Source of the DNA: a virus
Virus record (IMG/VR): IMGVR_UViG_3300034198_013875
Location: 1 to 24,168 of that record
DNA: 24,168 nt
Direction: 5' to 3' (one strand)
Part shown: positions 5,139-22,472 of the stretch, piece after piece
Position numbering within the stretch: the first letter of the stretch is position 1
How the letters are laid out: each line of letters starts with the position of its first letter
Notes under the pieces: generated by a model
The model's input: the letters and a program-made list of their open reading frames with translations, nothing else
Told to the model about the DNA's origin: nothing
Databases searched by the model: none
Program-made: the position numbers and the translations under genes

Positions 5139-5718
5139 CAGGAGATTCTACGGTTGGGGTTGGATTTAAAACGGATAATAATTGATCTATAGATAGCTTA
5201 AGCGATGCAATATCTTTAGTCAACTTTTTAAGTGTAGTTTTTTGAGACTTAATTTCTCTAATTAAGGCTTCCCGGAATTCTCCCTCATCTGCTAGATATT
5301 GCTTTTGTCCAGAATAGTCAGGAACGGCAAATCCATCCATTTGAGCAACATGCGAACCTTGTGGATGAATTCCTTGAGGAATATATTGTTGTGCATACTG
5401 TTGAGGAAGTGTTGCTAATGGAGCATTACTAGGAGGAAGAACACCTTCAGGAATATTTGGATAATCAGATGGTTGATTATAAATGGGATGTTGTGTATAT
5501 TGTGGAGGCGAAACCTGTTGATATTGTTGAGGATGCTGAGGATGCTGAGGATGCTGATAGTGTTGAGGAGGTCCTTGAGGACGTTGTTGCTGTTGCGGTC
5601 CATTCAAGAAATTCCTAAAATCAGTCCTTCGATAAGGAATGTCACCACCTTTCATCATACTGTGCATGGTTTTATCCAAAGAAGCGGCTAAAAAAGCTAT
5701 GTCTGTATCTTCGTTCAT
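5116..5718 (-). CDS. Q/P/H-rich low-complexity protein with C-terminal helix (200 aa)
   Basis: No known family is recognised. Residues 1-35 look folded (MNEDTDIAFLAASLDKTM...). Residues about 36-120 are a disordered Gln/Pro/His/Tyr-rich stretch including four QHP-type triplets in a row. Residues 145-190 form a charged heptad-like helix (EFREALIREIKSQKTTLKKL...DQLLSVL) that could make a coiled coil. The tail is Ser/Asp-rich. The disorder-plus-coil layout suggests a scaffold, tether or condensate-forming accessory factor, but that is inference. It overlaps the clamp gene by 23 bp and is the first gene after a promoter-like sequence (TTGAAA-N17-TAAATA) ending five bases before its ATG. Confidence 0.65.
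   Translation of the reverse strand: MNEDTDIAFLAASLDKTMHSMMKGGDIPYRRTDFRNFLNGPQQQQRPQGPPQHYQHPQHPQHPQQYQQVSPPQYTQHPIYNQPSDYPNIPEGVLPPSNAPLATLPQQYAQQYIPQGIHPQGSHVAQMDGFAVPDYSGQKQYLADEGEFREALIREIKSQKTTLKKLTKDIASLKLSIDQLLSVLNPTPTVESPDANSDQS
5529..5557 (-). repeat. Short 9-bp tandem repeat encoding HPQ
   Basis: Roughly three copies of a 9-bp unit (CTGAGGATG on the + strand) lie in the Q/P/H-rich gene and encode the repeated H-P-Q. Imperfect copies flank it. The unit length keeps frame, so slippage would change protein length without disrupting it. Confidence 0.75.
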
Positions 5719-5723
5719 ATCAA

Positions 5724-5752
5724 TATTTAGCCGCTTCTCGAATAATTTTCAA
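5724..5752 (-). promoter_or_regulatory. Putative promoter for the 200-aa gene and clamp operon
   Basis: On the - strand, TTGAAA (5747-5752), a 17-bp spacer and TAAATA (5724-5729) lie in the 37-bp gap after gp32. Only five bases (TTGAT) separate the -10 from the ATG. The -35 is five of six to consensus; the -10 is weak. Confidence 0.45.
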
Positions 5753-5755
5753 CTA

Positions 5756-6640
5756 TTAGTCTTTCAATAGTTCGTCCAATTCATCAACTTCTTCGGAAGA
5801 AGCTGAAGTTTTTGAAGTCGGACTGAGGTGAGGAATTTCATCTTCATCCAGATCTCCGTCAGATGTTGCACTGTTGCCAAACCAAAGAGTATCAAGGATC
5901 TTACGAATCTCTTCTGTAGATTTGACTTCAGGGACGAATTCGGTTAGATCATAGGCAGACTTAAGAATCTCATCGATCTTGGCAGGAGTTAGGCCAAGAC
6001 TTTCGGCATCGTCAAATTTGGCAGCATAGCTATTAAAACCGGCCTTATCAGTAACTTTGATAATAAGACTTCGGCCTTTTTCGGAAAGATCCAATGCCTT
6101 GGTTCCGATTTTTTTAGCCATATCACCAAAAATAGCTTCTTGGATAGTCTTATAGATGTCAGATACTGCATTACCATCTTTATCTACTTGTGCGGCATAT
6201 TTCACGGCGACAACAGATCCGATTTTCGCCTTGGCTTCGGCATCATCGCCATCCACGGAGACTAGATAAGCATTCACTTCCTGTTTACGGGAAGGAATGA
6301 GCTTATAGGACCGCTTTTTACCTTCTTCATCACCCTGTTCTTTAGCCTTGGAATAAACTGCCCATTGGGTAGTTTTGAACAGATCATCTTTGATCCCAGC
6401 ATCTTGTGGAGAACGACCACAATATACATAAGATCCGTCAATAATACTCGGGAATCCGATTTCTTTCCATGACACAAATGTGTTATCCACATCATTGATA
6501 TTCGGAATGAGACGGAGAGTATAGGTGTTACCTTTTTTGAAGGTCAGCACCCGTGGATCTTTGGTTCCAGCTTTTTCTTTGTTGACTTTAACTTCTTCGA
6601 CTTGTTTTACTTTGTTTAGGATATCTTCTAGATTTAACAT
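5756..6640 (-). CDS. gp32-like single-stranded DNA-binding protein (294 aa)
   Basis: This protein coats ssDNA at the fork and recruits recombination and helicase factors. The start is taken at MLNLEDILNKVKQ (ATG 6638-6640). An upstream in-frame ATG at 6694 would add 18 residues overlapping the previous gene and is less likely. The T4 gp32 layout is visible: a basic N-terminal segment (residues 11-24), an OB-fold core beginning RVLTFKKGNTYTLRLIPNIN (30-49), a second core half with KKIGTKALDLSEKGRSLIIK (176-195) and GFNSYAAKFDD (201-211), then a Ser/Thr linker and an acidic tail ending DELDELLKD, matching T4's DLDDLL end. Length is close to T4 gp32 (301). It has a single Cys (C74), so the His/Cys3 zinc site of T4 gp32 is absent. 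It lies between the loader candidate and the clamp operon. Confidence 0.85.
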   Translation of the reverse strand: MLNLEDILNKVKQVEEVKVNKEKAGTKDPRVLTFKKGNTYTLRLIPNINDVDNTFVSWKEIGFPSIIDGSYVYCGRSPQDAGIKDDLFKTTQWAVYSKAKEQGDEEGKKRSYKLIPSRKQEVNAYLVSVDGDDAEAKAKIGSVVAVKYAAQVDKDGNAVSDIYKTIQEAIFGDMAKKIGTKALDLSEKGRSLIIKVTDKAGFNSYAAKFDDAESLGLTPAKIDEILKSAYDLTEFVPEVKSTEEIRKILDTLWFGNSATSDGDLDEDEIPHLSPTSKTSASSEEVDELDELLKD

Positions 6641-6669
6641 ATATTTTATTTTTAGTTTATTTAATTTTA

Positions 6670-7368
6670 TCAGCGAACCAGAATTGATCCGCATGTAATA
6701 CTTATATCACAGTGTTTGTTTTGATGCAACTTCTTTTGTAGATAATCTTCTATTTTGTTTCTGATAAAAGTTAAAGAGTCTTCGGTTTTTTGACTGGCAT
6801 TATATTTATTATATAATGAATTCAGACTAATATCTGATCCAAAATAAAGATCAAATTCATCAGAAGGCAAATTATATAATAGATCATAAAATCCCGGAAT
6901 ACTGAAGATGACATACCAAGACAATTTATGTTCTTTCAAATGAATCAAACAGTCATTCTGAGACACTGAACAATAACTAACGTATTGACTCAATTTAATA
7001 TTCTTGGAGACACAAAACTCTGCAATGAATTTATAAGAACTCTTAATAAAGTCCATCTGTTCTTCAGGATTTCCGCTATTTAAAACCTTAAAATATGCAA
7101 TACATGTGGAGATACCCTTGGAACTGGCAAAGAATTTTAAATCATAAAATTTTTTTTCATCAGTATAAATTTTGTAAGGTGCATCAAAATAAAGATTACT
7201 CAGAAATGCCGGATACCGCTTAAACACATTCTCTAATTTCTCCAAATATGCAATTTTCTCTATACTCAAATCGTCAAATTTCTTCTTGGCCTTAAACGGT
7301 TGATTGTTATTAATCCTATATGCTCTTAGATATAAATTATAAATTTGTTTTTGAATGTCACTTATCAT
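6670..7368 (-). CDS. Helical protein, possible gp59-like helicase loader (232 aa)
   Basis: This Lys/Tyr/Phe-rich, mostly helical protein has no recognised catalytic motif. The N-terminal half starts QIYNLYLRAYRINNNQPFKA and continues with basic helices (KKFDDLSIEKIAYLEKLENVF). The C-terminal half has IFSIPGFYDLLYNLPSDEF. T4 gp59, which loads the gp41 helicase onto gp32-coated DNA, is also small (217 aa), basic and all-helical, with an N-terminal YxLYL-type helix, and is encoded beside gene 32. Here the gene sits directly upstream of gp32 and two genes downstream of the helicase. The loader idea rests mainly on size, composition and position, so it is tentative. Its ATG overlaps the TGA of the zinc-ribbon miniprotein (ATGA), implying coupled translation. 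Confidence 0.35.
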   Translation of the reverse strand: MISDIQKQIYNLYLRAYRINNNQPFKAKKKFDDLSIEKIAYLEKLENVFKRYPAFLSNLYFDAPYKIYTDEKKFYDLKFFASSKGISTCIAYFKVLNSGNPEEQMDFIKSSYKFIAEFCVSKNIKLSQYVSYCSVSQNDCLIHLKEHKLSWYVIFSIPGFYDLLYNLPSDEFDLYFGSDISLNSLYNKYNASQKTEDSLTFIRNKIEDYLQKKLHQNKHCDISITCGSILVR

Positions 7369-7535
7369 TTTTTCTTATCACTGCTTTTATTTTTACATAC
7401 TGAACATTTCCCCAATTTTCCAACTAAATTTGCATCACATATATTGCACCAGTGATATCCTAATTTAGCAACTAATGAAGTTTCTCGATTGGTCATGACA
7501 TATTCATCATCTTTTTCGAAAATCTCCCGTTTCAT
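7365..7535 (-). CDS. Zinc-ribbon miniprotein (56 aa)
   Basis: This small ORF runs from the ATG at 7533-7535 to the TGA at 7365-7367. It encodes 56 residues with two CxxC knuckles (CNIC at 30-33, CSVC at 44-47) separated by ten residues, and a Lys-rich tail. The paired CxxC spacing is a zinc-ribbon signature; many such phage proteins bind nucleic acid or bridge proteins, but no specific role can be read here. Support for expression is positional: it begins immediately after the stop of the 87-aa gene (7536) and its stop overlaps the next start in an ATGA junction, filling an otherwise empty 167-bp gap. Confidence 0.75.
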   Translation of the reverse strand: MKREIFEKDDEYVMTNRETSLVAKLGYHWCNICDANLVGKLGKCSVCKNKSSDKKK

Positions 7536-7799
7536 CTATTTTATCTTTTTGGTTTTATTTAGCACAGGATACCGGTGAGCTAAATATTCTATAATCGAAT
7601 ACCACGATGTTTCAGACAGATCAATTAAAGATTGTTGCAAAACTGGGTGTTTCTGAAGAATAATAAACATCGTAACACAAGAGACTGGTTTATTGGAAAA
7701 TAATGTGATCAAACTTCCGAATTTATTAACAGTTTCTTCCAGTTCTTGATTAATTAAATGAGTGTTGGCACATGGGGACGAGAAATCATCAGGAATCAT
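7536..7799 (-). CDS. Hypothetical protein (87 aa)
   Basis: This is a mostly helical small protein with a hydrophobic centre (FGSLITLFSNKPVSCVTMFI, residues about 27-46). It is a possible buried core or weak amphipathic segment rather than a clear membrane helix. The C-terminal part is WYSIIEYLAHRYPVL followed by a basic tail KTKKIK. No family is recognised. It starts 5 bp after the helicase stop and abuts the zinc-ribbon gene, so it is probably co-translated with replisome genes. Confidence 0.6.
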   Translation of the reverse strand: MIPDDFSSPCANTHLINQELEETVNKFGSLITLFSNKPVSCVTMFIILQKHPVLQQSLIDLSETSWYSIIEYLAHRYPVLNKTKKIK

Positions 7800-7804
7800 T
7801 GATT

Positions 7805-10195
7805 TTATTTACCATTCGTCAATAAGGAATCCAAGTCTAAAATTTCTGATAATTTTTTATTTCCAGATACTGCTACGGATGCATCAGGAATAGCACCATC
7901 GTCATCATACATTCGCAAGGTGCTATAATCAATTCTCAAATATCCGTCCATATTCTTTGCACCGTCGCGACTTTTTTTTCCACAAAATCGAATGATATTT
8001 CCTTCCCGATCTTCATCAGTCTGCCAGATATTAACATGTCCATCCATATCCTGAATGCTGTCCCAGCTTCCTGCAATGGCATCTAAACCGGGATTGGACG
8101 CTTTATGGCTTCCTCTATTCAATTGAGCAACTGTAAGCACAGGAGCATTATGCATGTAAGATAATCCACGACACTCTTGGATCAATACCTGAAGTTCAGA
8201 ATGCTTGGAATGCTGCACAGTAGATGGTTTCAATAATGCATGTCCATCGATACAAATTAGATCAGGGACAAATCCCTTTTTATCCTTAAGTTTTTTGAGA
8301 TATGCATGAATATTTTTAGGAGAAACCCCTTTTGTTGGAACTTCTTTGACAATTAATTTAGATTTATGTTTAGCAATAAATTCCTTTATATACCTCTTAT
8401 AGTTTTCAATGTCATTGATCAGAGAAGATATTGCAATACCAGTCAGCATTCCTGAAATTCTCTTAGCATATCTCATTTCTGACATCTCAGGTGATATGAT
8501 AACGACATTTTTATCCTGCATTATAACATTTAATGCGATATTCGCCAGACAGATACTATTATGGGTCACGAGGAAATCATTAGTCAAATATAAATGATCT
8601 TGCGCATCTACCGTAATACACATCGCTTCCTCTTCGGAATGATCTTCAATAGATAAAATTGTATTATGCACAAATTCACGTTTATTTTTACCAAATTCAA
8701 ACAATCGTTTAGATTTTCGAGATATTAAATTTAATTTTTGTTTTAAATGATATGGAAATCTAATCCTGACTTTATGATAAACTCTAGGTTCTCCTTTATA
8801 TTTTTTAATATGGCTGGATACTTTAGCATTTCCGCCCAATGATCTGACAATAAATGCTAATTGGTTAATCATACGTTCGTTTTTTAATAAAATCTCAATC
8901 GTAGATCCTTTACTGACAAACCCGTCAGTATCGATGAAACCATCTAATAAATGAAACCTATTCTCTACTGAGGAATACAAATATTCTTCTGGAATAAATT
9001 TAGTGTCTGACTTAGTATACGTTAGCCCCATTCGATATATTTCATCATTTAACAGATTACCTTTAATCTTACGATCAATTCTGCTAATGTCAGTAGTGCG
9101 TGATCCTGACAATTTAAGATTATATGGTAATAATTTCAGAAACTTAGATATGCATTCTTCATCAAAATTAGTAAATGATATATGATTATGAATAGACAAT
9201 CCTCCGTCACCTAGCAAGCATCCCATGACATATGGGTGAACTATATGCATCGTATTGTTATTAAATTCTACAGGATCGCATAGAGGAATTTGCAATCTTA
9301 ATTTATATGTTGAATAGTTTTCAATTTTAAATTTAATAACTTCAGTAGACAGCGTATCATAACGCATCTTAGGAGAATTCCAGACGGTCCATAAATGTTC
9401 AGGACAACATAAGGTTTCCCGACCATCCATAAATTTAACTTTATAGATTTTTTTAATTCCTTGAGGATGAATATGAGTAATATTTACAGGTTTACCATTT
9501 TTTCCAAATACTGTATCCCCAACTTTTAAATCACCAAAACGTTTTTCACCATCAGGAGTTCTAATAATCAATGAACATGGTTGCGCTTTTCCGACGTTGG
9601 TTTCTCCGCCAATATCATAAATGGCCTTTCCTTCTTTTTGAAATCCACCTCCAAATGCATCATCCAGAGATGGATATCCTGTAGATATAACAGATTCAGT
9701 TTCTTGAAGATATTTAACAACTCTATGATTATCCTCAAAATAATCCAACCCTAAATTATCAATTAAAGTAACAGCATGAATCTTCTCTGATTCTTTTTGA
9801 ATATCGTCCAGATCAAATTCTTTTTTACTGGCTTTGAAATCCAGAATCTTCTCTGTCAGCAAACCATACTTGCGTTGTTTAATAAAGTATTCAGTATTGG
9901 CAATTAATTCTTCTTCGCTGAATGCCCCATCAAGTTCCCTGATATATCCGACAACCTTTTTCAAGGAGTCTTTCAATGACACTGTATTAACTCTCAATTT
10001 AAGTTCTGTAAGAGTTGGCACGATATTTCGTTCCAAATAAAACGTCTTGATGATGTCAATAATATCAGCAATTGCTGAATCTTTGAACAAATCTTTGTCC
10101 AAATAATCAATGATACTGGCAATGTAGACAGATTCTCGTTTTAATGTATGTTGAATTATAATTTTTTCAAAGAAATCCAGATCGATTTTGGCCAT
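7805..10195 (-). CDS. DnaB/gp41-like replicative helicase precursor containing an intein (796 aa; extein 453 aa)
   Basis: This hexameric 5'-3' helicase unwinds DNA at the fork and works with a primase. Residues 1-150 are the helical N-terminal domain. The RecA-like domain opens with STGYPSLDDAFGGGF (171-185). The Walker A motif G-E-T-N-V-G-K ends at K203 and is completed by S547 after an inserted intein (residues 204-546). Further motifs are VVIISPEMSEMRYAKRISG (564-582, motif H1a region), Walker B LICIDG (646-651), VLTVAQLNRG (686-695, the sensor Gln segment) and GKKSRDG (739-745, an arginine-finger type loop). Without the intein the length is 453, close to T4 gp41 (475). The gene lies between the 99-aa and 87-aa unknowns, downstream of UvsX. 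Helicase activity requires protein splicing, because the intein splits the P-loop. Confidence 0.93.
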   Translation of the reverse strand: MAKIDLDFFEKIIIQHTLKRESVYIASIIDYLDKDLFKDSAIADIIDIIKTFYLERNIVPTLTELKLRVNTVSLKDSLKKVVGYIRELDGAFSEEELIANTEYFIKQRKYGLLTEKILDFKASKKEFDLDDIQKESEKIHAVTLIDNLGLDYFEDNHRVVKYLQETESVISTGYPSLDDAFGGGFQKEGKAIYDIGGETNVGKAQPCSLIIRTPDGEKRFGDLKVGDTVFGKNGKPVNITHIHPQGIKKIYKVKFMDGRETLCCPEHLWTVWNSPKMRYDTLSTEVIKFKIENYSTYKLRLQIPLCDPVEFNNNTMHIVHPYVMGCLLGDGGLSIHNHISFTNFDEECISKFLKLLPYNLKLSGSRTTDISRIDRKIKGNLLNDEIYRMGLTYTKSDTKFIPEEYLYSSVENRFHLLDGFIDTDGFVSKGSTIEILLKNERMINQLAFIVRSLGGNAKVSSHIKKYKGEPRVYHKVRIRFPYHLKQKLNLISRKSKRLFEFGKNKREFVHNTILSIEDHSEEEAMCITVDAQDHLYLTNDFLVTHNSICLANIALNVIMQDKNVVIISPEMSEMRYAKRISGMLTGIAISSLINDIENYKRYIKEFIAKHKSKLIVKEVPTKGVSPKNIHAYLKKLKDKKGFVPDLICIDGHALLKPSTVQHSKHSELQVLIQECRGLSYMHNAPVLTVAQLNRGSHKASNPGLDAIAGSWDSIQDMDGHVNIWQTDEDREGNIIRFCGKKSRDGAKNMDGYLRIDYSTLRMYDDDGAIPDASVAVSGNKKLSEILDLDSLLTNGK
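8558..9586 (-). other. Class 3 intein with LAGLIDADG homing endonuclease in the helicase P-loop (343 aa)
   Basis: The intein runs from A204 to N546 of the helicase, between K203 and S547 of Walker A; joining these gives GETNVGKS. Splicing block A is AQPCSLIIRTPDGEKRFGDL and block B is TLCCPEHLW (H267, W269). Block F is MCITVDAQDHLYL (C526 replacing the usual Asp) and block G is FLVTHN (T544, H545, N546). There is no nucleophile at position 1 (Ala). Together with W at B:12, C at F:4 and T at G:5, this is the published signature of class 3 inteins, in which the block F Cys starts splicing. The two DOD endonuclease motifs are present: MGCLLGDGG (324-332, catalytic D330) and LLDGFIDTDG (416-425, catalytic D422 or D424). 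The endonuclease looks intact, so homing may be active. Confidence 0.9.
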
Positions 10196-10223
10196 TAGAT
10201 AGTTTCGTATATGTGATTAATTT

Positions 10224-10523
10224 TTATTCTTTAAAATACTCAATTCCTAGTAAATTGCTTTCAATAGATTTTCCGGTAATAAATTTCTTAACAAACCATG
10301 CATGAAACATCCCCGGATCGATTACGACATCCGGGGATGTTTTTGTATAACTGGATTTTACCATACATGCATCGTATAATTCTGCAATAGTCAATTGTCC
10401 AGATTTTTCAGTATCTTCATTTCTCCATCGAAACGCAATATCGTGTTCATTCGGAATATTAATTCGTTGAATACGAGGTTTGTCAATTAATTGACCAGTT
10501 GATTTGATTATTGCATATATCAC
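10224..10523 (-). CDS. Hypothetical protein (99 aa)
   Basis: This is a small protein of unknown function. Strands IYAIIKSTGQL and IQRINIPNEHDIAFRW suggest a beta-rich N-terminal half. The middle (GQLTIAELYDACMV) is helical. The last third contains DVVIDPGMFHAWFVKKFITGKSI. Its start overlaps the UvsX stop by four bases (ATGA type), so it is translationally coupled to UvsX. Its coding sequence carries a perfect 14-bp hairpin at 10305-10342, listed separately. There is a 28-bp AT-rich gap before the helicase, in which no promoter of the local type is visible. Confidence 0.65.
   Translation of the reverse strand: MIYAIIKSTGQLIDKPRIQRINIPNEHDIAFRWRNEDTEKSGQLTIAELYDACMVKSSYTKTSPDVVIDPGMFHAWFVKKFITGKSIESNLLGIEYFKE
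10305..10342. repeat. Perfect 14-bp inverted repeat (hairpin) inside a coding region
   Basis: AAACATCCCCGGAT (10305-10318) and its exact complement ATCCGGGGATGTTT (10329-10342) flank a 10-base loop. The core is GC-rich in an AT-rich genome. On the + strand it is followed by more T (10341-10344 are TTTT), which gives terminator form for antisense transcription. On the sense (-) strand the 3' arm ends in TTT and then CATG, so it is a weaker terminator but a strong mRNA structure. Confidence 0.85.
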
Positions 10524-11545
10524 AGTGCATATTTTTTCTCCACTTTATCACAGAACTCAACATCAGTCAAGAAGGATTCCATGATTTCTTCATCATCTTC
10601 GATATCTGCCCGACGCTTTACCACATCGCCTTTTACCGAATACCATCCTTGTTTTTCGGAAGTAATGTATCCGAACTCTTGAGCCAATTCGAAGATACCA
10701 GAATATCGGCTAATACCATCGGCAAAAGTCACATAGATTGGAAATGTAGAGTTCTCCCGGACATATCGGGAAAGTGCAGCACGAAGCGTAAATTTAAATC
10801 CTGCAAGAACATCTTTGGTTTTTGTTTTACCATCAATAGTAATTTTTTCAGATTCTTTTTCTTGTGCTTTAGAAATAAAGTGTAATGCTTGTGCCGCATA
10901 TTGTGCTCCTCTACCTCCTGATGCAACTTCTTTGGAATACATCTCCTGAGTTTCATATGAATGATTCACCACAATCATCGGGATCTGCTTAATAGCTGCT
11001 TCTCCCGTAATAATTCGGAAAAATGATTTAATTGCCTTTGCCCGAGTCATGTCCGATACTTGTTTATTGTCAATTGCATCATTAGTTTCCTTATCTGATC
11101 GCAACATACCCAGAGAATCGATGCAAATCAGAACATTATCGCCTTCCGAAATATCGTTCATCAGATTTGCGCAATCAGTCTTCAATTCTTCAACAGAACG
11201 AATGGGTCGGTGATCGATCTTGGAAGTATCGATTCCTGCTTGTTCGAAATATTCAGGAGTAGAACCTAATTCACTATCATATAAAACTACAATGGCATCT
11301 TTACCTTCATTTTCCTTCTGAAAACCTTTCATAATCTCAATCATGAAATTAGTTTTGAAGTGTTTTGGAGGAGCAGCAATTTGATAGATGCCTCTGGGAA
11401 GTCCTCCATGGATTTTCCCGGACAATGCCACATTCAACAAAGGAATGTTAGTCTTAATGTATTTTTGATTATTGAAATATTTGCTATTTTTGAGAATTTC
11501 AGGTTTAAGGATAGTATTCTTACGAAGTTTGTCGAGTAATGCCAT
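10520..11545 (-). CDS. uvsX: UvsX/RecA-like recombinase (341 aa)
   Basis: This protein catalyses strand exchange for recombination-dependent replication and repair. The start is the ATG at 11543-11545 (MALLDKLRKN); a longer frame back to 11575 would run through the promoter-like sequence and is unlikely. The P-loop region is GIYQIAAPPKHFKTNF (52-67), matching the atypical T4 UvsX form G-P-S-K-S-F-K-S, with K64-T65 as the nucleotide-binding pair. Other hallmarks are VVLYDSELGSTPEYF, then a VLICIDSLGML Walker B, then SDMTRAKAIKSFFRI and IPMIVVNHSYETQEMYSKEV, all very close to T4 UvsX. The DNA-binding loop region contains SGGRGAQYAA. A terminator and a promoter-like element lie directly upstream, so it heads a transcription unit running into the helicase. 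Confidence 0.95.
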   Translation of the reverse strand: MALLDKLRKNTILKPEILKNSKYFNNQKYIKTNIPLLNVALSGKIHGGLPRGIYQIAAPPKHFKTNFMIEIMKGFQKENEGKDAIVVLYDSELGSTPEYFEQAGIDTSKIDHRPIRSVEELKTDCANLMNDISEGDNVLICIDSLGMLRSDKETNDAIDNKQVSDMTRAKAIKSFFRIITGEAAIKQIPMIVVNHSYETQEMYSKEVASGGRGAQYAAQALHFISKAQEKESEKITIDGKTKTKDVLAGFKFTLRAALSRYVRENSTFPIYVTFADGISRYSGIFELAQEFGYITSEKQGWYSVKGDVVKRRADIEDDEEIMESFLTDVEFCDKVEKKYAL

Positions 11546-11550
11546 ATATA

Positions 11551-11579
11551 AACTTACCCTATACATACATTCCAATCAA
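11551..11579 (-). promoter_or_regulatory. Putative promoter for uvsX
   Basis: TTGATT (11574-11579), a 17-bp spacer and TAAGTT (11551-11556) on the - strand are followed by TATAT and the ATG. It begins two bases after the terminator hairpin of the upstream unit, which is where a new promoter would be expected. The same TAARTTTATA-N-ATG ending occurs before gp46. Confidence 0.5.
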
Positions 11580-11580: not shown

Positions 11581-11616
11581 AAAAAAGCCCACATATTTGA
11601 CTATGTGGGCTTTTTT
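11581..11616 (-). terminator. Rho-independent (bidirectional) terminator after the Hc1-like gene
   Basis: AAAAAAGCCCACATA (11581-11595) pairs perfectly with TATGTGGGCTTTTTT (11602-11616) around a 6-base loop, giving a 9-bp mixed stem flanked by A6/T6 tracts. Read on the - strand, it starts 13 bp after the stop of the Hc1-like gene and ends in six U, a textbook intrinsic terminator. The symmetry allows function on both strands. Confidence 0.93.
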
Positions 11617-12141: not shown

Positions 12142-12510
12142 TTAAAAGAGTTTTACGATGTTGTCAGTTTTTTCAGGAGCAGAAGCAGGAAGTGGAACCT
12201 TGTTACTAATTGCTTTATAATTATCCACCACATTCTTGGACAATTCCAAATCGTAATGGAGCAATGCAGATTTTTCTAATGTATACAGAATATCCACATT
12301 AGGATCAGCGAGTAAATTCCGAATATTAACAGCAGGAGCAAGAGACAACATTTCTACAGGAATAAAATTAATATTGATCTGACCATTTACTCCATTAATC
12401 CCCAAAAATGCCGGGTTCCTCACCACAATCACCTTTTCATCTTCAGATACTACAGTAACAACCAGTAGTTCACTGATATTCTTCAAAATTCCTACAATTT
12501 TTTCTTCCAT
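12142..12510 (-). CDS. Sm-like fold phage protein (122 aa)
   Basis: The N-terminal 55 residues are strand-rich (LLVVTVVSEDEKVIVVRNPAFLG type, residues 15-37), with the V-x-N-P-A turn. They are followed by INFIPVEMLSL and a later strand-helix ending in ...VVDNYKAISNKV. This order (opening strands, R/K-N-P, an F-x-P segment, a charged strand, a Y-containing helix) resembles small Sm-like proteins found in T4-like marine phages. Those are suspected of RNA or protein binding, but no function is established here. A promoter-like sequence (TTGAAA-N18-TAGTAT) ends four bases before the ATG in the 43-bp gap, suggesting it heads the short unit Sm-like / 87-aa / Hc1-like / terminator. Confidence 0.45.
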   Translation of the reverse strand: MEEKIVGILKNISELLVVTVVSEDEKVIVVRNPAFLGINGVNGQININFIPVEMLSLAPAVNIRNLLADPNVDILYTLEKSALLHYDLELSKNVVDNYKAISNKVPLPASAPEKTDNIVKLF

Positions 12511-12514: not shown

Positions 12515-12544
12515 ATACTAATTTTTATCGTATAGTCATTTCAA
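12515..12544 (-). promoter_or_regulatory. Putative promoter for the Sm-like / Hc1-like unit
   Basis: TTGAAA (12539-12544), 18 bp, TAGTAT (12515-12520) on the - strand, then TATC and ATG. The -35 is five of six and the -10 four of six to consensus. It lies in one of the few real intergenic gaps and opens a unit that closes with the terminator at 11581-11616. Confidence 0.4.
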
Positions 12545-12553: not shown

Positions 12554-12814
12554 TCACTTTTTGTAAGTTTCTTGAATATTTCTTGAACTATACGTGTTGA
12601 AGAACTGAAGGAGATCCTGATACTGAGTCTGAAGTTCAGAATATACCTGAATAAAAGACTTCTCTTCGTGTTCAATCAACCGATGCATCTCCTCCTTACT
12701 GATCCATTTCTTGGAAAAATAATCTTCCCGAATTATTTCAATATCTCTGATGTTAAAGATAATGTCATAGTATCTTTTAAGTTTAGCCAAAAATGTCTTC
12801 AAGCGAGAGTTCAT
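12554..12814 (-). CDS. Hypothetical helical protein downstream of polymerase (86 aa)
   Basis: This is a basic, helical small protein (MNSRLKTFLAKLKRYYDIIF...KKWISKEEMHRLIEHEEKSF). No family is recognised. Two starts are possible: ATG at 12836-12838 (94 aa) or ATG at 12812-12814 (86 aa). The shorter is preferred because its leader (CTAAAAAACAAC) is A-rich like others here and the overlap with the polymerase 3' end is smaller (32 bp). The overlap with the polymerase implies coupled translation and perhaps a polymerase-associated role, but that is inference. Confidence 0.55.
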   Translation of the reverse strand: MNSRLKTFLAKLKRYYDIIFNIRDIEIIREDYFSKKWISKEEMHRLIEHEEKSFIQVYSELQTQYQDLLQFFNTYSSRNIQETYKK

Positions 12815-15359: not shown

Positions 15360-15364
15360 AACCT

Positions 15365-15393
15365 ACTATACCACAATTTACAAGACTTGACAA
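15365..15393 (-). promoter_or_regulatory. Putative promoter for DNA polymerase
   Basis: TTGTCA (15388-15393), exact 17-bp spacer, TATAGT (15365-15370) on the - strand, each hexamer five of six to sigma-70 consensus, followed by AGGTT and the ATG. The -35 overlaps the -35 of the divergent promoter. Confidence 0.65.
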
Positions 15394-15414
15394 GTGGTAT
15401 GTTTATGATAAATT
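15387..15414 (+). promoter_or_regulatory. Putative promoter for the + strand 113-aa gene
   Basis: A perfect TTGACA (15387-15392), 16-bp spacer and TAAATT (15409-15414), then seven bases to the ATG at 15422. It lies within a palindrome, ACTTG-A-CAAGT (15385-15395), so both strands present a -35-like hexamer. A second inverted repeat, ATACCAC (15368-15374) / GTGGTAT (15394-15400), spans the region and could be an operator. Confidence 0.55.
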
Positions 15415-15421
15415 ACTGTAT

Positions 15422-15763
15422 ATGAAAATGATGGGAATTGAATTTGACGAATCAAAATTTAAAAAACGTAAAGGTTTTGGAAATATAGTAATTGACCAAG
15501 AAATGTTTAAATTTAATTGGGCAAATACTGATAATGGTCCGTTGTTAATACTGTATAATACGGATGGGTTAAAAATTGAAATCCCGTATACTGTGTGGAC
15601 GAACAGTGTAGAGCATTGTCAAGAATTCTTAAACACTAAATCTCATCAATGTCATACATGGCACGGAAAACACAAAAAAGGGCCATGCTTTGGAAGATGG
15701 GGAAAAGCAGAAGCGGCTGAAATGTATCGAAAATATAAAATTTCTCAAGAAACTAAAAATTAA
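15422..15763 (+). CDS. Lone + strand small protein with His/Cys cluster (113 aa)
   Basis: This is the only rightward gene between 2487 and the right edge. The function is unknown. Residues 20-60 are strand-rich (GNIVIDQEMFKFNW, GPLLILYNTDGLKIEIPYTVW). Residues 75-89 contain H-x-C-H-x-x-H-x-x-H-x4-C, a plausible metal site. The C-terminus is a charged helix (KAEAAEMYRKYKISQE). It has its own promoter, divergent from and overlapping that of the polymerase. Its 3' end overlaps the end of the convergent GT-B gene by 11 bp. The setting suggests a regulator or an independently acquired gene with separate timing; this is inference. Confidence 0.65.
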   Translation: MKMMGIEFDESKFKKRKGFGNIVIDQEMFKFNWANTDNGPLLILYNTDGLKIEIPYTVWTNSVEHCQEFLNTKSHQCHTWHGKHKKGPCFGRWGKAEAAEMYRKYKISQETKN

Positions 15764-17093
15764 CAAATTGTTTCGGATTGTTCTTTACAAATGACGCATT
15801 CTTCTTTCTCTCCTCCGATCCGTAATCAGTCGTGTAGATCAAATTATATTCATCCAAATGATCTTGAATAAAATATTGTTCAGAATACTTTCTGGAAAAA
15901 TCTGATGCTTCTAAATAAGAAGATTCTGTCTTAAGAACATCTGCCAACATCTTAAACATTTCCTCTGAAGTATCAAATAGATATTTCCATCCGTTAAAGT
16001 TATAACAATCCAGATTTTGTGCAATACAAGGAATTCCCTGAGAACCAGATTCGGTTAATTTAATATTGGCTTTGGCACGGGAAAATTCATTATTTGCTAA
16101 AGGTGCAATACATGCATTGACATTCAGTTCTTTAAGTTTTTGCGGATATTCAGAGATTGCACACCATTGATGAAATTCAATTCCACTTCCAATAAATTGT
16201 CGCAATTTCAAAGGAAGTGCTCCGAAAAATACCCATTCATATTTTTTATGAATTAAAATATCCTGAGCAATAGCATCTACAACGTGTCCAAAATCATCCT
16301 TTTGGTCTACTTTATTAGCAACATCAAAATGCGTTCCGCTACCTGCATACAAAATTCTGGGTTTAGCCTTATGTTTGTAGTATCGTTTAGTCAATTTGCT
16401 TCTATCGTAGTCAATATCGAATAATCCTTTAGGGAGATAATTGGGAAGAACTGTAATTTTATGATAATCTAGACGATCTTCATAAATATTTTTCATTTTG
16501 TCAGAAGGCAAAATAAATTCATCACAGAGATGCACGATTTCCTTCACAATAATTTCAATTTTAGGATCTTGGAAAGCATCACCGCAAACGTTATATGGAC
16601 TAATAAGATTAGCAAAAATCACGTCGTCCAACTCGAATATGATCCTAAATCCTTTACCAGTTTTTTCCTTTAATTGATCAGATACATCCCGTAAGAATTT
16701 CACAAAATCCCGCTGAATGTCAGTGCATTGTCGTTGCAATCTAACTGCATCAATTCCGCGATAGAAATTAGCATCTGTGACCATTTGATACAAAGTCATG
16801 ATAACAGTCTTGTTGTGTGCCAGAAGCTCATCACCGGGCCAGATCATGCGCCAAAAAGCACATCCTGATTGATCTGCACAATAATGGATAACTCTAGGAA
16901 GTCCTTCTCCTGGTGGACGGATATCAAAATCTTTTTTCTGTTGATATTCCGACAATTTAAGCATCAACGATCCGAAGGCTTTAGGACCATAAGGATTTCC
17001 AAATGGAAATGAAATATTAGTAGATTCCACAACGGGAACTGGTTTTACTTCTGGAATTTTCTTGGAAGAAGAATTGGATATAATTGATGGCAT
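15753..17093 (-). CDS. GT-B type (GT4-like) glycosyltransferase (446 aa)
   Basis: This is a probable nucleotide-sugar dependent glycosyltransferase; donor and acceptor are unknown. After a disordered 25-residue N-terminus, the first Rossmann-like domain includes GLPRVIHYCADQSGCAFWRM (64-83) and RIIFELDDVIF (150-160). The linker DEFILPSDKMKNIY and the second domain start PRILYAGSGTHFD (245-257) have the usual GT4 order. The donor-site segment is IAPLANNEFSRAKANIKLTE (329-348), followed by SGSQGIPCIAQN, the classic E...G-x-P-x-x-A region. It starts 16 bp after gp46 ends, preceded by a TTGAAT-N16-TAAATA promoter-like sequence. It might modify phage DNA, virion or host surface glycans. Confidence 0.8.
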   Translation of the reverse strand: MPSIISNSSSKKIPEVKPVPVVESTNISFPFGNPYGPKAFGSLMLKLSEYQQKKDFDIRPPGEGLPRVIHYCADQSGCAFWRMIWPGDELLAHNKTVIMTLYQMVTDANFYRGIDAVRLQRQCTDIQRDFVKFLRDVSDQLKEKTGKGFRIIFELDDVIFANLISPYNVCGDAFQDPKIEIIVKEIVHLCDEFILPSDKMKNIYEDRLDYHKITVLPNYLPKGLFDIDYDRSKLTKRYYKHKAKPRILYAGSGTHFDVANKVDQKDDFGHVVDAIAQDILIHKKYEWVFFGALPLKLRQFIGSGIEFHQWCAISEYPQKLKELNVNACIAPLANNEFSRAKANIKLTESGSQGIPCIAQNLDCYNFNGWKYLFDTSEEMFKMLADVLKTESSYLEASDFSRKYSEQYFIQDHLDEYNLIYTTDYGSEERKKNASFVKNNPKQFVNF

Positions 17094-17099
17094 TGCATT

Positions 17100-17127
17100 T
17101 ATTTAAATATCAATATGCATCATTCAA
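17100..17127 (-). promoter_or_regulatory. Putative promoter for the GT-B glycosyltransferase
   Basis: TTGAAT (17122-17127), 16 bp, TAAATA (17100-17105) on the - strand, six bases before the ATG. The -35 lies in the 3' end of the gp46 gene. The -10 is weak, so support comes mainly from the geometry shared with other starts in this window. Confidence 0.35.
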
Positions 17128-18852
17128 CCTAGTAATATGATTTTCTTTAATTAAATCAATTATTTTACATCCTGCATCATCTATATTGGACTTCTTATGG
17201 GTGACAATTATATAACAATCATCCACATTTTCTTTCAGAAGTTCAACAATGTCCATCATGCCCCTTGAGCAAATGGAACCATCAAGAATCTCGTCCATTA
17301 CTGTGACATTAATATCTACATTACTTTGCATCTTCCTGATATCCCTGAATGCAAATAACATGGCAACATCAACCCGTTTAGCCTCTCCACCACTTAAGCT
17401 TCCATAAGAATAATCTTCTCCTTGTAAAGTTTTGAAATTCTCTTCGAAAAATTCGTCAAAACATACTTTATAAGGAGAATGAAGTCTGGAAAGATAATAA
17501 TTGATCCGTGCATTCAATGTATCAATGACTTTATGAATAACAATCGATTTAATCCCCGTAGGAGATGCCGCCTCTTTAATGAGTTGAGCAATTTTTGAAG
17601 AATCTATCAACTCCGACAATTCTCCTTCTACTATAACAATCTGGCTTTCTCCTTTTTCTATTTTTTCCGAGAAAGGATTGACATTATCTACAAGTCTCTT
17701 CTGTTCGTTAATCAATGAATCTATTTCTGACTGACTTCTGACGAACTTCTGCTGTTCGACATTAAGCAGTTTAATAGTATCAGAATTCTTTCTTATAGTA
17801 ATTTTGTCGGAACTGATTTTAGACTCCACCGTCGAAATAGCACTAGTCATCTTCTTAATACTGTCGTCTGACTCTAAGATCAAACTTCTCAAATCCGCTT
17901 TTTCTTTATCAATTTCTTCCTGATTGTGTTCTTCATAAGGTCGTTTACATGAAGGACATCTATCTAATTTTCCTTGCAATTTATCTAACTGAGATTTTTT
18001 ATGATTCCTATCAGATTGCAAGTCAGATAATTTTACATTGGCTTTTTTTATTTTTTCCTGTTTCTCTTCGACACTTAAATTACATAAGGTAATTTCTTCC
18101 TGTAATTTATCGACTTCTTCTGTGGTATCCAGAGGTTGCAAGGATTTCAGTTCATCGATCTTGGTCTGAATTCTAACAAACTCGTCCTGTTGTCTACGAA
18201 CATGCTGATCAAAATACAGTCTGTCATTCTCCAAATTTCTTTTAAGAATGTTCAGTTCCTGAAATTTCATGGATCGTTTGTCATCTGCTGCCTTGCTTTC
18301 CTCTTTGGCAATTTTCAAAAACTCCGCAAATGCCTCCAATCCTAGAATCCCTTCAACAAACTTAGTTTTTAGATCTTTCTTTTGATTCAGAAATGACAGA
18401 GAGTCCTTGGAAGACATTACAATCGTATTGGTGAATACAGTTTTGGATATTCCGATACGTTCGATAATGTCCTTATTTGTTTCAGTAATAGTCTTGGTGA
18501 ACTTGTCCGAATCTCCATTAACCGTAAGAACCAGTTTATTAGGAGATAAACCACGGGCAATATGAATCTCATCATCATTGACCTTTAACCATCCTTCGAC
18601 AATACAAGTTTTATTAGTCCATTTGTTCTTGATTAGCTTCTGATTAATATCCCGATAGGTTTCCCCAAAAAGCAAAAAGGACAACGATTCAACAATTAGA
18701 GAAGTTTTACCAACTCCATTATATGAATCATCATCCTTATTGTAACCAGTAACAAAAGTTATCCCTTTATCAAAGGTGATTTCTATTGGCGAATCCCCAT
18801 AAGATAAAAAATTACGAACTCTTATCTTTTGAAATTCAACAACTTTACTCAT
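17110..18852 (-). CDS. gp46/SbcC/Rad50-like recombination exonuclease subunit (580 aa)
   Basis: This ATPase subunit of the gp46-gp47 (Rad50-Mre11) nuclease resects DNA ends for recombination. The Walker A region (G36 to S51) is ITFVTGY, then an extra acidic stretch, then NGVGKTS. Two long coiled coils (about 185-290 and 310-420) flank the zinc hook CPSC (299-302). The C-terminal ATPase half has the signature SLSGGEAKRVDVAMLFAFRD (485-504), Walker B VTVMDE (516-521) and the H-loop VTHKKS (550-555). The last parts parallel T4 gp46 (signature followed by R-I-D-I-A-L-L-F, and L-D-E-V-F-D-G-S). No Mre11/gp47 partner is encoded in the window; it may lie outside. A promoter-like sequence lies just upstream. 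Confidence 0.93.
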   Translation of the reverse strand: MSKVVEFQKIRVRNFLSYGDSPIEITFDKGITFVTGYNKDDDSYNGVGKTSLIVESLSFLLFGETYRDINQKLIKNKWTNKTCIVEGWLKVNDDEIHIARGLSPNKLVLTVNGDSDKFTKTITETNKDIIERIGISKTVFTNTIVMSSKDSLSFLNQKKDLKTKFVEGILGLEAFAEFLKIAKEESKAADDKRSMKFQELNILKRNLENDRLYFDQHVRRQQDEFVRIQTKIDELKSLQPLDTTEEVDKLQEEITLCNLSVEEKQEKIKKANVKLSDLQSDRNHKKSQLDKLQGKLDRCPSCKRPYEEHNQEEIDKEKADLRSLILESDDSIKKMTSAISTVESKISSDKITIRKNSDTIKLLNVEQQKFVRSQSEIDSLINEQKRLVDNVNPFSEKIEKGESQIVIVEGELSELIDSSKIAQLIKEAASPTGIKSIVIHKVIDTLNARINYYLSRLHSPYKVCFDEFFEENFKTLQGEDYSYGSLSGGEAKRVDVAMLFAFRDIRKMQSNVDINVTVMDEILDGSICSRGMMDIVELLKENVDDCYIIVTHKKSNIDDAGCKIIDLIKENHITRLNDAY

Positions 18853-18857
18853 CTATA

Positions 18858-18886
18858 AATTTACATCATACTTACACGGAACTCAA
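18858..18886 (-). promoter_or_regulatory. Putative promoter for gp46
   Basis: TTGAGT (18881-18886), 17 bp, TAAATT (18858-18863) on the - strand, then TATAG and ATG. The -35 sits within the last codons of the 69-aa gene. The last 14 bases before and including the ATG match the uvsX start at all but two positions. Confidence 0.45.
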
Positions 18887-19081
18887 GGAATTCTGAACAA
18901 TAGCAAGTTCTTCTTTGGTAATTTTCTTATTAATAAAATTCTGAAGTGCTTCAGAAAGCAATCGGAACTTTTCCGCAGAATTATCAGGAGGTGCGGTAGA
19001 CTCGGTATAGGTAGAGGGAGGGGCAGCATATCCTGATGGAGCGGAAGGAGCAATATTAAAAACGCGAGATGTAGTCATCAT
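18872..19081 (-). CDS. Hypothetical small protein (69 aa)
   Basis: The N-terminal 35 residues are Ala/Pro/Ser/Thr-rich and probably disordered. Residues 36-69 are two helices (SAEKFRLLSEALQNFINKKI; KEELAIVQNSL) of a kind seen in small oligomerising phage proteins. No family is recognised. The first Met pair (MM) leaves either as start. It is preceded by a 37-bp gap holding TATAAT three bases before the ATG, and lies 19 bp before gp46. Confidence 0.55.
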   Translation of the reverse strand: MMTTSRVFNIAPSAPSGYAAPPSTYTESTAPPDNSAEKFRLLSEALQNFINKKITKEELAIVQNSLSSV

Positions 19082-19084
19082 AGA

Positions 19085-19116
19085 ATTATATTTAATTTTA
19101 AAAATTCAGCATTCAA
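19085..19116 (-). promoter_or_regulatory. Possible promoter for the 69-aa gene
   Basis: A perfect TATAAT (19085-19090) lies three bases before the ATG on the - strand. The nearest TTGA-type hexamer, TTGAAT (19111-19116), is 20 bp upstream, longer than usual. The AT-richness of the gap makes a chance TATAAT likely, so confidence is low. Confidence 0.3.
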
Positions 19117-19118
19117 CA

Positions 19119-19988: not shown

Positions 19989-19993
19989 ATAAA

Positions 19994-20419
19994 TTAGGTC
20001 AAATTATAAAACTGTGCCACGTCTTTATGATTAAGATGATTTCGAGCATCTTCAAAAGATGCTATAATTTCATCTTTGGTCGCTTCTTGATACGATAAAT
20101 CAGTAAAATATGTTAATCTTATATGTAACTTACCGTCTTTTTGCACATAGTGATCGTAATATTTGATCGTGACTTTGCCAAACTCTTTGATCAAGCTTTC
20201 GAAATTGCGTAAAATATCCTGAACTGATTCGACCACCATGCTTTGCACTTCGTATAATCGTCTTTGCATGGGAAAATTTCCATGATTTTCAGGATCTGGA
20301 TATAGAAATGCATATAGTCCTACTGGAGCTAGGGCATTCATCCACGATACTGTTGCTCCTGCAATTATAGCAAGGTCTTTAATATCCTGTTCAGTTATGT
20401 CTTTAAGTTCTTTTTGCAT
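19994..20419 (-). CDS. Hypothetical protein (141 aa)
   Basis: No family is recognised. Residues 1-30 form helices with a small hydrophobic stretch (DLAIIAGATVSWMNALAPVG). The centre is a long helix (RLYEVQSMVVESVQDILRNF). The C-terminal half has alternating strands (KVTIKYYDHYV, KLHIRLTYFTDL) and a terminal helix. Its first 17 bases overlap the end of the upstream GT2 gene, indicating coupled translation. Its position between two glycosyltransferases suggests an accessory role, unproven. Confidence 0.6.
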   Translation of the reverse strand: MQKELKDITEQDIKDLAIIAGATVSWMNALAPVGLYAFLYPDPENHGNFPMQRRLYEVQSMVVESVQDILRNFESLIKEFGKVTIKYYDHYVQKDGKLHIRLTYFTDLSYQEATKDEIIASFEDARNHLNHKDVAQFYNLT

Positions 20420-21149: not shown

Positions 21150-21153
21150 GTTC

Positions 21154-21297
21154 TTAAATTTCGTAATCTACATTTCCAGTATAAAATGGTCTAATTTTGA
21201 TTAGATCTGAAATATCAATGCTACCTATAATATTGACCAATTTACAAGCTTTCCAAAAACTCAATTTACTCAAATCGATATCGACGCAATATCTCAT
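21154..21297 (-). CDS. Small protein coupled to the AAA+ ATPase (47 aa)
   Basis: This ORF runs from the ATG at 21295-21297 to the TAA at 21154-21156. The sequence begins MRYCVDIDLSKLSFWKACKL and ends in a Tyr/Asp-rich tail (NVDYEI). The ATG overlaps the TGA of the AAA+ gene (ATGA), and the stop is 4 bp before the GT2 start, so it fills the gap exactly. No motif is recognised. The junctions are the main support. Confidence 0.6.
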   Translation of the reverse strand: MRYCVDIDLSKLSFWKACKLVNIIGSIDISDLIKIRPFYTGNVDYEI

Positions 21298-22439
21298 ACT
21301 CCAAAACCCACCTTTCTAACTTGTTTTTTAGTTCCAAACACATTTTCATCATTATAAATTTCTGCAAGGGTCATTTTCTTCTTAGGAGGATCTTGACCGT
21401 GTAAAGATTTAAATAAATTAACAGTCTTAGCTTCACTAAGTTCATCAAATTTATACTTTAAGAACGTTCTTCCCTTTCTGGTCAAGGCATAATCGATTCG
21501 ATCTTCAGGAGTATTGAATGTAGCAATGATCTTAAAGTTTAAAACATCCGCCATGATTCCGTCACATATATTCAACAGGATAGAAATGGCACTATTATCA
21601 CCATGTTCTTCTCTGGATAAAAGAATTTTCTCAGCATCCTCGATAATTAGTAAACTTTCCTTTTCCTTTTTGATGACAGGAAGGAATGAAGGATCTCCGA
21701 TACTCTGCACAAAATAAGGAGGAATATAAATCTTCTTTACATCTGAATTAGAGTTTAACAAATGTTTGATATAATTAGTTTTTCCAGAACCATGAATGCC
21801 GTGCAGAAGAACTAATTTATTATTTGGAGTTGAGAAGTCACCTATCCAACCACCAATTTTTTCATGAACTTCTTTAAAATCGTCATTGTAATGATTTTCC
21901 AAATCCAAATCATACGATTTGACTTTATGCGGAGTCAGAATAATATTGCTATATTCATCCTTCTCAAATAGTAAAACCTTCCCTTTATTTTCGTTATGAT
22001 CCTTTACCCCAAACTTATCATAAATTTCATATGCAACGCTGGTATTAATAAATGGATCATACCAAATACTATTTCCAATATTTTCCGAAGACAATTCGTC
22101 ATCTCCCGGATAGGAACTTTCTGCATCAGAAATTTCTAGAATAATTCGATGAACCGCATGTCTAAACATAACTGAATGCTTAGTTTCTCTACAGAAATGA
22201 CTCTTGGAAATAATAATAGAGAATCCTTTGCCAATTAAATACTTGGCAAATTCTTCAAATCTACCAGACTTATATTCCAAATAAATATGAGAAGGGATTT
22301 TATTAAACATCAGCACATAAACAAACTCCTGGGAAGAGGATACATCCCGATTGAGCATGAATTTACTATTATTGGAAATATCAATATTTTGTTCTTCGAT
22401 AATTGCTCCCCATGCTTTAAGCTGTTCAATTAAATTCAT
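21294..22439 (-). CDS. AAA+ ATPase, BCS1-like (381 aa)
   Basis: The N-terminal 200 residues are an alpha/beta domain without recognised motifs (it includes EFVYVLMFNKIPSHIYLEYK). The AAA+ module has Walker A LLHGIHGSGKTNYI, Walker B SLLIIEDAEKIL, sensor 1 FKIIATFNT and an arginine-finger segment YALTRKGRTF. The order and the 'N-T...R-x-G-R' ending resemble BCS1-type and related phage AAA proteins rather than gp44 clamp loaders. The role is unknown; remodelling of a protein complex is the family's general activity. A strong promoter-like sequence (TTGACA-N16-TATATT) ends five bases before the ATG, and the gene is coupled to a 47-aa ORF. Confidence 0.8.
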   Translation of the reverse strand: MNLIEQLKAWGAIIEEQNIDISNNSKFMLNRDVSSSQEFVYVLMFNKIPSHIYLEYKSGRFEEFAKYLIGKGFSIIISKSHFCRETKHSVMFRHAVHRIILEISDAESSYPGDDELSSENIGNSIWYDPFINTSVAYEIYDKFGVKDHNENKGKVLLFEKDEYSNIILTPHKVKSYDLDLENHYNDDFKEVHEKIGGWIGDFSTPNNKLVLLHGIHGSGKTNYIKHLLNSNSDVKKIYIPPYFVQSIGDPSFLPVIKKEKESLLIIEDAEKILLSREEHGDNSAISILLNICDGIMADVLNFKIIATFNTPEDRIDYALTRKGRTFLKYKFDELSEAKTVNLFKSLHGQDPPKKKMTLAEIYNDENVFGTKKQVRKVGFGV

Positions 22440-22444
22440 GCAGT

Positions 22445-22472
22445 AATATATCTATGCTTGATCTGATGTCAA
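22445..22472 (-). promoter_or_regulatory. Putative promoter for the AAA+ ATPase unit
   Basis: A perfect TTGACA (22467-22472), 16-bp spacer and TATATT (22445-22450) on the - strand, followed by ACTGC and the ATG. It overlaps the 3' end of the upstream GT2 gene. The -35 is full consensus and the -10 five of six. Confidence 0.55.

Follow-up and report, generated by a model that had tools for sequence, protein, structure and literature searches.

Two classes of promoter-like boxes abut the start codons of uncultivated T4-like phages and suggest leaderless mRNAs

One leaderless phage transcript, beginning directly with its AUG, is the cI message of phage lambda. Lambda is also where leaderless initiation was originally discovered (PMC3160421), and leaderless genes of the Deinococcus-Thermus group and of Actinobacteria carry a -10 motif next to the open reading frame (PMC12340547, PMC3160421). 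In T4 the core of the late promoter is TAAATA, and the late box spans -13 to -6 (PMC1524935). A survey of pelagimyophages searched for late promoters without success (PMC7029224). Our literature search returned no paper on genome-wide leaderless expression in T4-type phages, and the available part of the source on Thermus phage P23-45, a possible precedent, makes no mention of leaderless mRNAs in it.

Here we analyze a 24,168-nt stretch of viral DNA (the window) together with related viral contigs, which form a group of uncultivated T4-like viruses of bacteria. Window and relatives together encode a T4-type polymerase, UvsX, gp46/47, gp55 and gp18/gp19/gp23, with the virion genes and gp55 contributed by the relatives and not by the window. 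UvsX identity within the lineage is as low as 49%, and tRNAs were absent from the lineages scanned except for ten in contig G024. Searches for a host gave no relative with a UvsX profile against GTDB contigs, and matches of only 37-39%, in unrelated bacteria, with a sugar-enzyme query; the SbcC-like protein used as a query for relatives gave no matches. We scored 701 predicted gene starts in ten genomes (the window included) against shuffles and internal ATGs, using our own unpolished gene calls, in which some starts are possibly misplaced. Five contigs (G020-G024) were held out and added only once the motifs were defined.

A sequence-only reading of the window had listed nine promoter sites lying against start codons. 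All nine are present at the coordinates given, with boxes that end 4-7 nt upstream of the start codon and spacers of 16-18 bp. The sigma-70-like pairs are as follows.

11551..11556, minus strand: TAAGTT, -10-like, 5 nt before the ATG of uvsX (10520-11545); TATATT/TATAAT at 4-7 nt in relatives
11574..11579, minus strand: TTGATT, -35-like, uvsX, directly behind the terminator T-run; TTGAAA/TTGAAT in close relatives, likewise just behind a terminator
11581..11616, no strand assigned: hairpin GCCCACATA/TATGTGGGC with A6/T6 flanks, an intrinsic terminator (self-match)
12515..12520, minus strand: TAGTAT, -10-like, 4 nt before the ATG of gene 12142-12510; (G)TTAATAnT at about the same distance in relatives
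12539..12544, minus strand: TTGAAA, -35 of gene 12142-12510; TTGAA/TTGATT in all relatives
15365..15370, minus strand: TATAGT, -10, 5 nt before the ATG of the DNA polymerase gene (12783-15359)
15388..15393, minus strand: TTGTCA, -35 of the DNA polymerase gene
15387..15392, plus strand: TTGACA, -35 of gene 15422-15763; overlaps its counterpart in the divergent polymerase promoter
15409..15414, plus strand: TAAATT, -10, 7 nt before the ATG of gene 15422-15763, a gene sought in relatives and not found
18858..18863, minus strand: TAAATT, -10, 5 nt before the ATG of the SbcC/gp46-like gene (17110-18852)
18881..18886, minus strand: TTGAGT, -35 of the SbcC/gp46-like gene; TTGAAA/TTGAAG in relatives
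22445..22450, minus strand: TATATT, -10, 5 nt before the ATG of gene 21294-22439 (ATPase-like); matched in relatives G001, G007 and G013
22467..22472, minus strand: TTGACA, -35 of gene 21294-22439; TTGACA in G007 and G013

The uvsX promoter is the site described earlier as directly following a terminator, and it does lie right behind a perfect hairpin and T-run at 11581-11616, which ends 35 nt before the ATG and leaves room for a promoter only; relatives carry different hairpins in the same place. Likewise, two sites are indeed divergent (genes 15359(-) and 15422(+), 62 bp apart) and two carry a full TTGACA (15387-15392 and 22467-22472). The claim that no T4-type late promoter occurs at these starts was wrong, as three of the nine boxes are TAAATA (5724-5729, 17100-17105 and 19089-19094), and the same box stands at three unlisted window starts (477, 2815 and 7799).

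465..470, plus strand: TAAATA late-like box, 6 nt before the ATG of gene 477-2486 (669 aa); retained 5-9 nt before the ATG in orthologues
2823..2828, minus strand: TAAATA late-like box, 7 nt before the ATG of gene 2483-2815; ATAAATACATAT-ATG in several orthologues
5724..5729, minus strand: TAAATA late-like box, 5 nt before the ATG of gene 5116-5718; CTAAATA at 5-6 nt in 9/9 relatives
5747..5752, minus strand: TTGAAA, -35-like, 17 bp before the TAAATA box of gene 5116-5718; relatives retain TTGA(A/T)
7806..7811, minus strand: TAAATA late-like box, 6 nt before the ATG of gene 7536-7799; GTTAAATA/ATTAAATA across all relatives
17100..17105, minus strand: TAAATA late-like box, 6 nt before the ATG of gene 15753-17093 (glycosyltransferase-like); relatives retain TTTTAAATA/CTTAAATA, with TTTTAAGTA in G018
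17122..17127, minus strand: TTGAAT, -35-like, 16 bp before the TAAATA box of gene 15753-17093; TTGAAT/TTGAAA in all relatives, but inside the upstream coding sequence or at its end
19089..19094, minus strand: TAAATA late-like box, 7 nt before the ATG of gene 18872-19081; retained in G001, G007, G013 and G018
19111..19116, minus strand: TTGAAT, -35-like, 16 bp before the TAAATA box of gene 18872-19081; TTGAAA in G001 and G007, absent in G013/G018

The TTGAAA and TAAATA elements of gene 5116-5718 may possibly constitute a dual early/late promoter. Among 32 curated window starts, ten have an abutting TTG.../TA... pair (1.8 in dinucleotide shuffles, maximum 7 in 300) and six have TAA(A/G)TA 3-9 nt upstream (0.5 in shuffles, maximum 3). 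A position-free scan of the window for sigma-70 promoters gave 99 hits vs 86 +/- 9, which is not a significant enrichment, and thus the signal is purely positional.

Across the ten genomes, about half of all genes have a promoter box approximately 5 nt before the start codon, so the pattern is much broader than the nine listed cases and extends to a genome-wide, SD-free programme; these genome counts are not independent because the lineages share ancestry. One class of box is sigma-70-like, with TTGACA-like and TATAAT-like hexamers separated by 16-18 bp; its TTGA(C/A)A + TATAnT form ends 2-9 nt upstream of 70 of the 701 starts, with a mode of 5 nt (5.6 in shuffles and 6.5 at internal ATGs), and its -35 falls about 27-30 nt before the start codon, at promoter spacing. 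The other class is T4-late-type TAA(A/G)TA, which ends 3-9 nt upstream of 229/701 starts with modes of 5 and 6 nt, where internal ATGs predict 2. The leading TA of a TATAAATA-like octamer is weakly retained and TAAGTA is a common variant. The classes barely overlap (222 starts late only, 78 sigma-70 only, 7 both), and 145 of the 701 starts (about 21%) are without either a box or a close upstream gene. The distance peak at 5-6 nt is sharp and stands at approximately 10-100 times expectation. Motif-to-start distance, scored against shuffles in relatives including the held-out contigs, was the check proposed by the sequence-only reading, and enrichment was found: late-box enrichment was repeated in G020-G024, and the -35 peak was repeated, more weakly, in G023.

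Orthologous promoters are retained across lineages while their flanks diverge. Polymerase promoters in some relatives lie behind terminators with no room for a leader, like that of uvsX. Additionally, in 8 lineages the ATGs of one divergent gene pair lie just 25-33 bp apart; in most of these lineages the gap contains two facing late boxes, and gaps of this size strongly limit leader length. The expected initiator, a pyrimidine and then a purine at the predicted +1, agrees with gaps of 5 and 8 nt and, for the purine only, 9 nt, with no clear fit at gaps of 6 or 7 nt.

The two classes also divide by gene function. Scoreable replication genes have sigma-70-like and late-type boxes in a ratio of 27 to 0, while scoreable structural genes have a late box only in 18 cases vs sigma-70 only in 1 (27:0 vs 1:18, Fisher p = 7e-12). 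A homologue of the gp55 late sigma (phrog_234) is encoded by six relatives (G001, G013 and G021-G024) vs 0/14 cellular controls, and none was seen in the 24-kb window fragment. Profile searches recognised no gp45 or gp33 homologue, and a candidate clamp at 4392-5138 had no profile, family or PDB match and a poor predicted model. SD motifs are at or below background for every start class (3-9% of starts vs 11% at internal ATGs), as compared to 65-84% in the T4 late region. The controls (T4, cyanophage, Campylobacter phage and others) are rich in SD motifs, and any enriched late boxes in them are found 10-30 nt upstream; CP81 (a Campylobacter phage, 26% GC) and Mosig (33% GC), which are equally or more A/T-rich, have no late-box enrichment at 3-9 nt. 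Leaderless genes are marked by a -10 element some 10 bp ahead of the start together with a lack of SD, and this combination was found here.

We consider it very probable, on the basis of comparative sequence analysis, that the abutting boxes are genuine promoters of two classes giving leaderless mRNAs, and leaderlessness of the boxed genes is strongly indicated. The distance peak and the T4 spacing bear out the earlier reading of these genes as likely leaderless, with the amendment that the promoters fall into two classes, of which one is T4-late-like. As the T4 box lies at -13 to -6 (PMC1524935), a 5-nt gap puts +1 on the A of the ATG, and transcription would start on, or within a few nt of, this base. 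The two classes would presumably be temporal, with host RNA polymerase transcribing replication and metabolism genes from sigma-70-type promoters (TTGA(C/A)A, 16-18 bp, TATAnT) and virion genes being read after a gp55-type late sigma redirects host polymerase to TAA(A/G)TA boxes. With no Shine-Dalgarno sequence, ribosomes would load at the 5'-terminal AUG; within tightly packed operons, the downstream genes would rely on coupling for translation. A phage-encoded bS21 as the cause was sought in the lineage and none was found; HTVC008M carries one.

An alternative that we regard as unlikely is that these are real promoters whose transcripts start a few nt upstream and carry very short leaders of 1-10 nt. 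The gaps do span 3-9 nt, and at gap-8 and gap-9 late boxes the bases at the sixth nucleotide fit a start there with a 3-4 nt leader; however, the modes of 5-6 nt agree with a +1 on the ATG or immediately beside it, exactly in the case of 5 nt by T4 spacing (PMC1524935). Such transcripts would functionally be nearly the same as leaderless ones, with which they overlap, because no SD would fit. It is quite improbable that the boxes are instead a translation-initiation signal, such as the non-SD ribosome-binding element inferred for Bacteroidota. Generally A/T-rich starts and the absence of SD at every start class would suit such an element, but it does not account for the split of TAAATA and -35/-10 pairs by gene function, the near exclusivity of the two classes, the promoter spacing of the -35 or the presence of gp55. 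Moreover, tightly packed genes mostly lack boxes, while boxes are retained directly behind terminators and in the 25-33 bp divergent gaps.

Mis-called start codons, with true starts downstream and ordinary leaders, are a very improbable explanation. Some of the unpolished calls were wrong (that of uvsX in the window, for example, was placed at 11566 and not at 11545), but orthologues share start positions, UvsX similarity starts within the first three residues, and wrong starts would blur a 5-nt peak, not create one. That A/T-rich upstream regions simply give TATAAT-like words anywhere has a negligible probability; the generic promoter scan of the window fits this notion, but it is refuted by the positional enrichment over both shuffles and internal ATGs and by the A/T-rich controls CP81 and Mosig.

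Returning to leaderless promoters of two classes, we lean slightly toward a broader proposal that this deep T4-like lineage may express its whole genome without SD initiation, with each unit, early and late, beginning at a promoter-fused 5'-terminal AUG and the rest being coupled. If true, it would follow that the host is SD-independent or that the phage controls ribosome choice. If the architecture is confirmed, gp55-dependent late transcription, a model system, would have been welded to the start codon in one lineage, promoter choice would become start-codon choice with SD-based translational control removed, and hosts would be predicted to translate leaderless mRNA efficiently. Since the box would then fix the start codon, it would provide a strong handle for annotating such phages. 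A start-abutting architecture may also explain why late-promoter searches in related marine phages fail, as in the pelagimyophage survey (PMC7029224), although HTVC008M has TAAATA exactly 5 nt upstream at several ATGs.

Among known systems, T4 late promoters (gp55/gp33/gp45-dependent, TATAAATA at -13 to -6) share with the boxes described here the TAAATA core, no requirement for a -35, use at virion genes and, in relatives, a gp55 homologue. In contrast, most boxes in the T4 late region stand 12-28 nt upstream of the ATG, and a leader and SD are present, whereas here the distance is 5-6 nt, SD is absent, conservation does not include the first T of TATAAATA and TAAGTA is common. In the first 50 kb of the T4-like Pelagibacter phage HTVC008M, about 8 genes carry TAAATA, mostly as TATAAATAG, at a distance of exactly 5 nt from the ATG, but SD motifs lead most of the other genes of this phage and an abutting sigma-70 class is absent from it; Mosig EXVC030M has a single start with TAAATA at exactly this distance. 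Leaderless genes of Deinococcus-Thermus and Actinobacteria are alike in having a -10 a few bp before the open reading frame and no SD, but these are cellular genes with TANNNT, with little need for a -35 in Deinococcus, while the phage genes have full -35/-10 pairs and a second, phage-sigma class. Finally, lambda cI also has a transcript starting from the AUG, but as a single gene and not as a genome-wide plan.

The 24,168-base record is probably a genome fragment, and it encodes a T4-type replication block together with an exonuclease and several glycosyltransferases:

5756-6640: gp32-like SSB
7805-10195 (-): DnaB helicase
10520-11545: UvsX
12783-15359: DNA polymerase
17110-18852: SbcC/gp46-like protein

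Among named relatives even the nearest are distant (polymerase ~31% to cyanophages; UvsX ~42-44% to Campylobacter, Klebsiella and Stenotrophomonas phages), and closer relatives are found only among uncultivated viral contigs. A 21-base unit (ACTCCAACAGCTTCTGACGGA) forms tandem repeats at the contig end (1-85). The DnaB product carries an intein-like insertion at roughly residues 190-550 that matches LAGLIDADG/homing-endonuclease and Hint; in the related contigs G002, L015 and L017 the product is of similar length, and in G013, G007 and others it is ~450 aa without the insertion. The polymerase gene of contig G017 is in two parts ~1.5 kb apart (14764-18890), which suggests an inserted element. 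Contig G024 has ten tRNA genes at 5780-7844, and an interval between them may contain an open reading frame; the other lineages scanned yielded no tRNAs.

The sequence-only reading had placed promoters about five bases before the ATG at nine gene starts of the window and proposed leaderless mRNAs, and all nine sites are present where it had located them. Of 32 curated starts in the window, 10 have an abutting pair (1.8 in shuffles) and 6 have TAA(A/G)TA 3-9 nt upstream (0.5 in shuffles). Promoter-like pairs irrespective of position show no significant enrichment there, and their special feature is position only. The same reading saw no T4-type late promoter, which has to be corrected: TAAATA boxes make up three of its nine sites (those of starts 5718, 17093 and 19081), and the same box also stands before starts 477, 2815 and 7799.

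These boxes hold their place in alignments of the sequence upstream of orthologous genes, which drew on up to ten relatives. In close lineages uvsX retains TTGAAA-17-TATATT/TATAAT ending 4-7 nt before the ATG, and dnaB of the relatives has TTGACT-17-(G/C)ATA(A/G)T at 5-8 nt, a pair not found at the window's own dnaB. The pairs of polymerase, SbcC, 12510 and 22439 are retained in most close lineages. The TAAATA boxes of 477, 5718, 7799, 17093 and 19081 are likewise retained. At uvsX, and at polymerase in some relatives, the -35 starts directly after a terminator T-run, leaving no room for a leader.

Contig genes were predicted with our own simple codon-based caller and k-mer enrichment was scored immediately upstream of 333 starts. 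TAAATA was the top k-mer (96 versus 6.6 expected), ending at 5 nt in 42 cases and at 6 nt in 31, and TTGA(C/A)(A/T) peaked 27-30 nt upstream. Because these words came from the first contigs, five more distant contigs (UvsX identity 64-49%), fetched after the words were found, served as held-out data; they reproduced the late-box result (for example, 42 versus 1.9 expected in G024) and the -35 peak, which was weaker in G023. In ten pooled genomes the late box precedes 229 of 701 starts, where the rate at 2822 internal in-frame ATGs would give 2.0; a sigma-70 pair ends 2-9 nt before 70 starts (shuffles give 5.6 and internal ATGs 6.5), at exactly 5 nt in 30 of them. By a looser criterion 332 of the 701 starts have an abutting box and 224 more overlap the previous gene or lie within 6 nt of its end, leaving 145 (21%) without explanation. 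This positional result is not weakened by the relatedness of the lineages or by our gene calls, which instead limit the passage from promoter position to leaderless translation.

Shine-Dalgarno (SD)-like tetramers precede 3% of boxed, 9% of tightly packed and 4% of remaining starts, versus 11% of internal ATGs and, in the T4 late region, 84% (spaced) and 65% (packed). In eight lineages one divergent pair, whose larger gene is orthologous in all eight and whose partner is confirmed in five, has only 25-33 bp between its start codons, with late boxes facing each other in most (in contig G022 the gap reads GTACTTATTTATCGGATAAATATAAAAA). Such a gap cannot hold two promoters and two ordinary leaders unless the promoters sit inside the opposite genes. 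In contig G001 a near-palindromic 33-bp gap (1254-1286) separates two divergent GTG starts, and a TAAATA box lies 5 nt ahead of either one.

The two promoter classes divide by function among genes that could be recognised from their resemblance to proteins of T4, HTVC008M or C48C1. Replication genes have 27 sigma-70-only and 0 late-only starts and structural genes 1 and 18 (Fisher p = 7e-12, not a strict probability as the lineages share ancestry), a comparison restricted to genes with a clear box, which many replication genes of the distant lineages do not have. A homologue of the late sigma gp55 is encoded by contigs G001, G013, G021, G022, G023 and G024 and by none of 14 cellular control genomes; no gp45 or gp33 was recognised. 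In T4 the late box occupies positions -13 to -6, counted from the transcription start (PMC1524935), so that a 5-nt gap sets +1 on the A of ATG. The initiator-base pattern agrees with gaps of 5 and 8 nt and partly 9 and is ambiguous at 6 and 7, and thus some transcripts may carry a leader a few nucleotides long.

The evidence is best read as leaderless transcription from two kinds of promoter, in which replication genes would be transcribed from host sigma-70 promoters and virion genes from gp55-directed ones, ribosomes would load on the 5'-terminal AUG independently of SD, and translational coupling would serve inside operons. In this scheme the precise 5' ends, the binding of TAAATA by gp55, the timing, any dependence on a clamp and the mode of translation are inferred.

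Leaderless phage mRNAs are known as single cases, and the open-licence literature searched yielded no report of a T4-type phage with leaderless expression across its genome. Among cellular organisms, leaderless genes whose -10 adjoins the reading frame are an established feature of Deinococcus-Thermus and occur commonly in Actinobacteria (PMC12340547, PMC3160421). The abutting arrangement is absent from the control phages T4, S-MbCM6, C48C1 and Campylobacter CP81 and from the distant contig G010; CP81, at 26% GC, is more A/T-rich than the window lineage. A survey of pelagimyophages was unsuccessful in predicting middle and late promoters (PMC7029224). In the first 50 kb of the isolated Pelagibacter phage HTVC008M, TAAATA, mostly as TATAAATAG, ends 5 nt before the ATG at ~8 genes and an SD precedes most other starts, a mixed state on which the literature searched held no comment. 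We read these boxes as leaderless-looking late promoters, mixed with SD-led genes.
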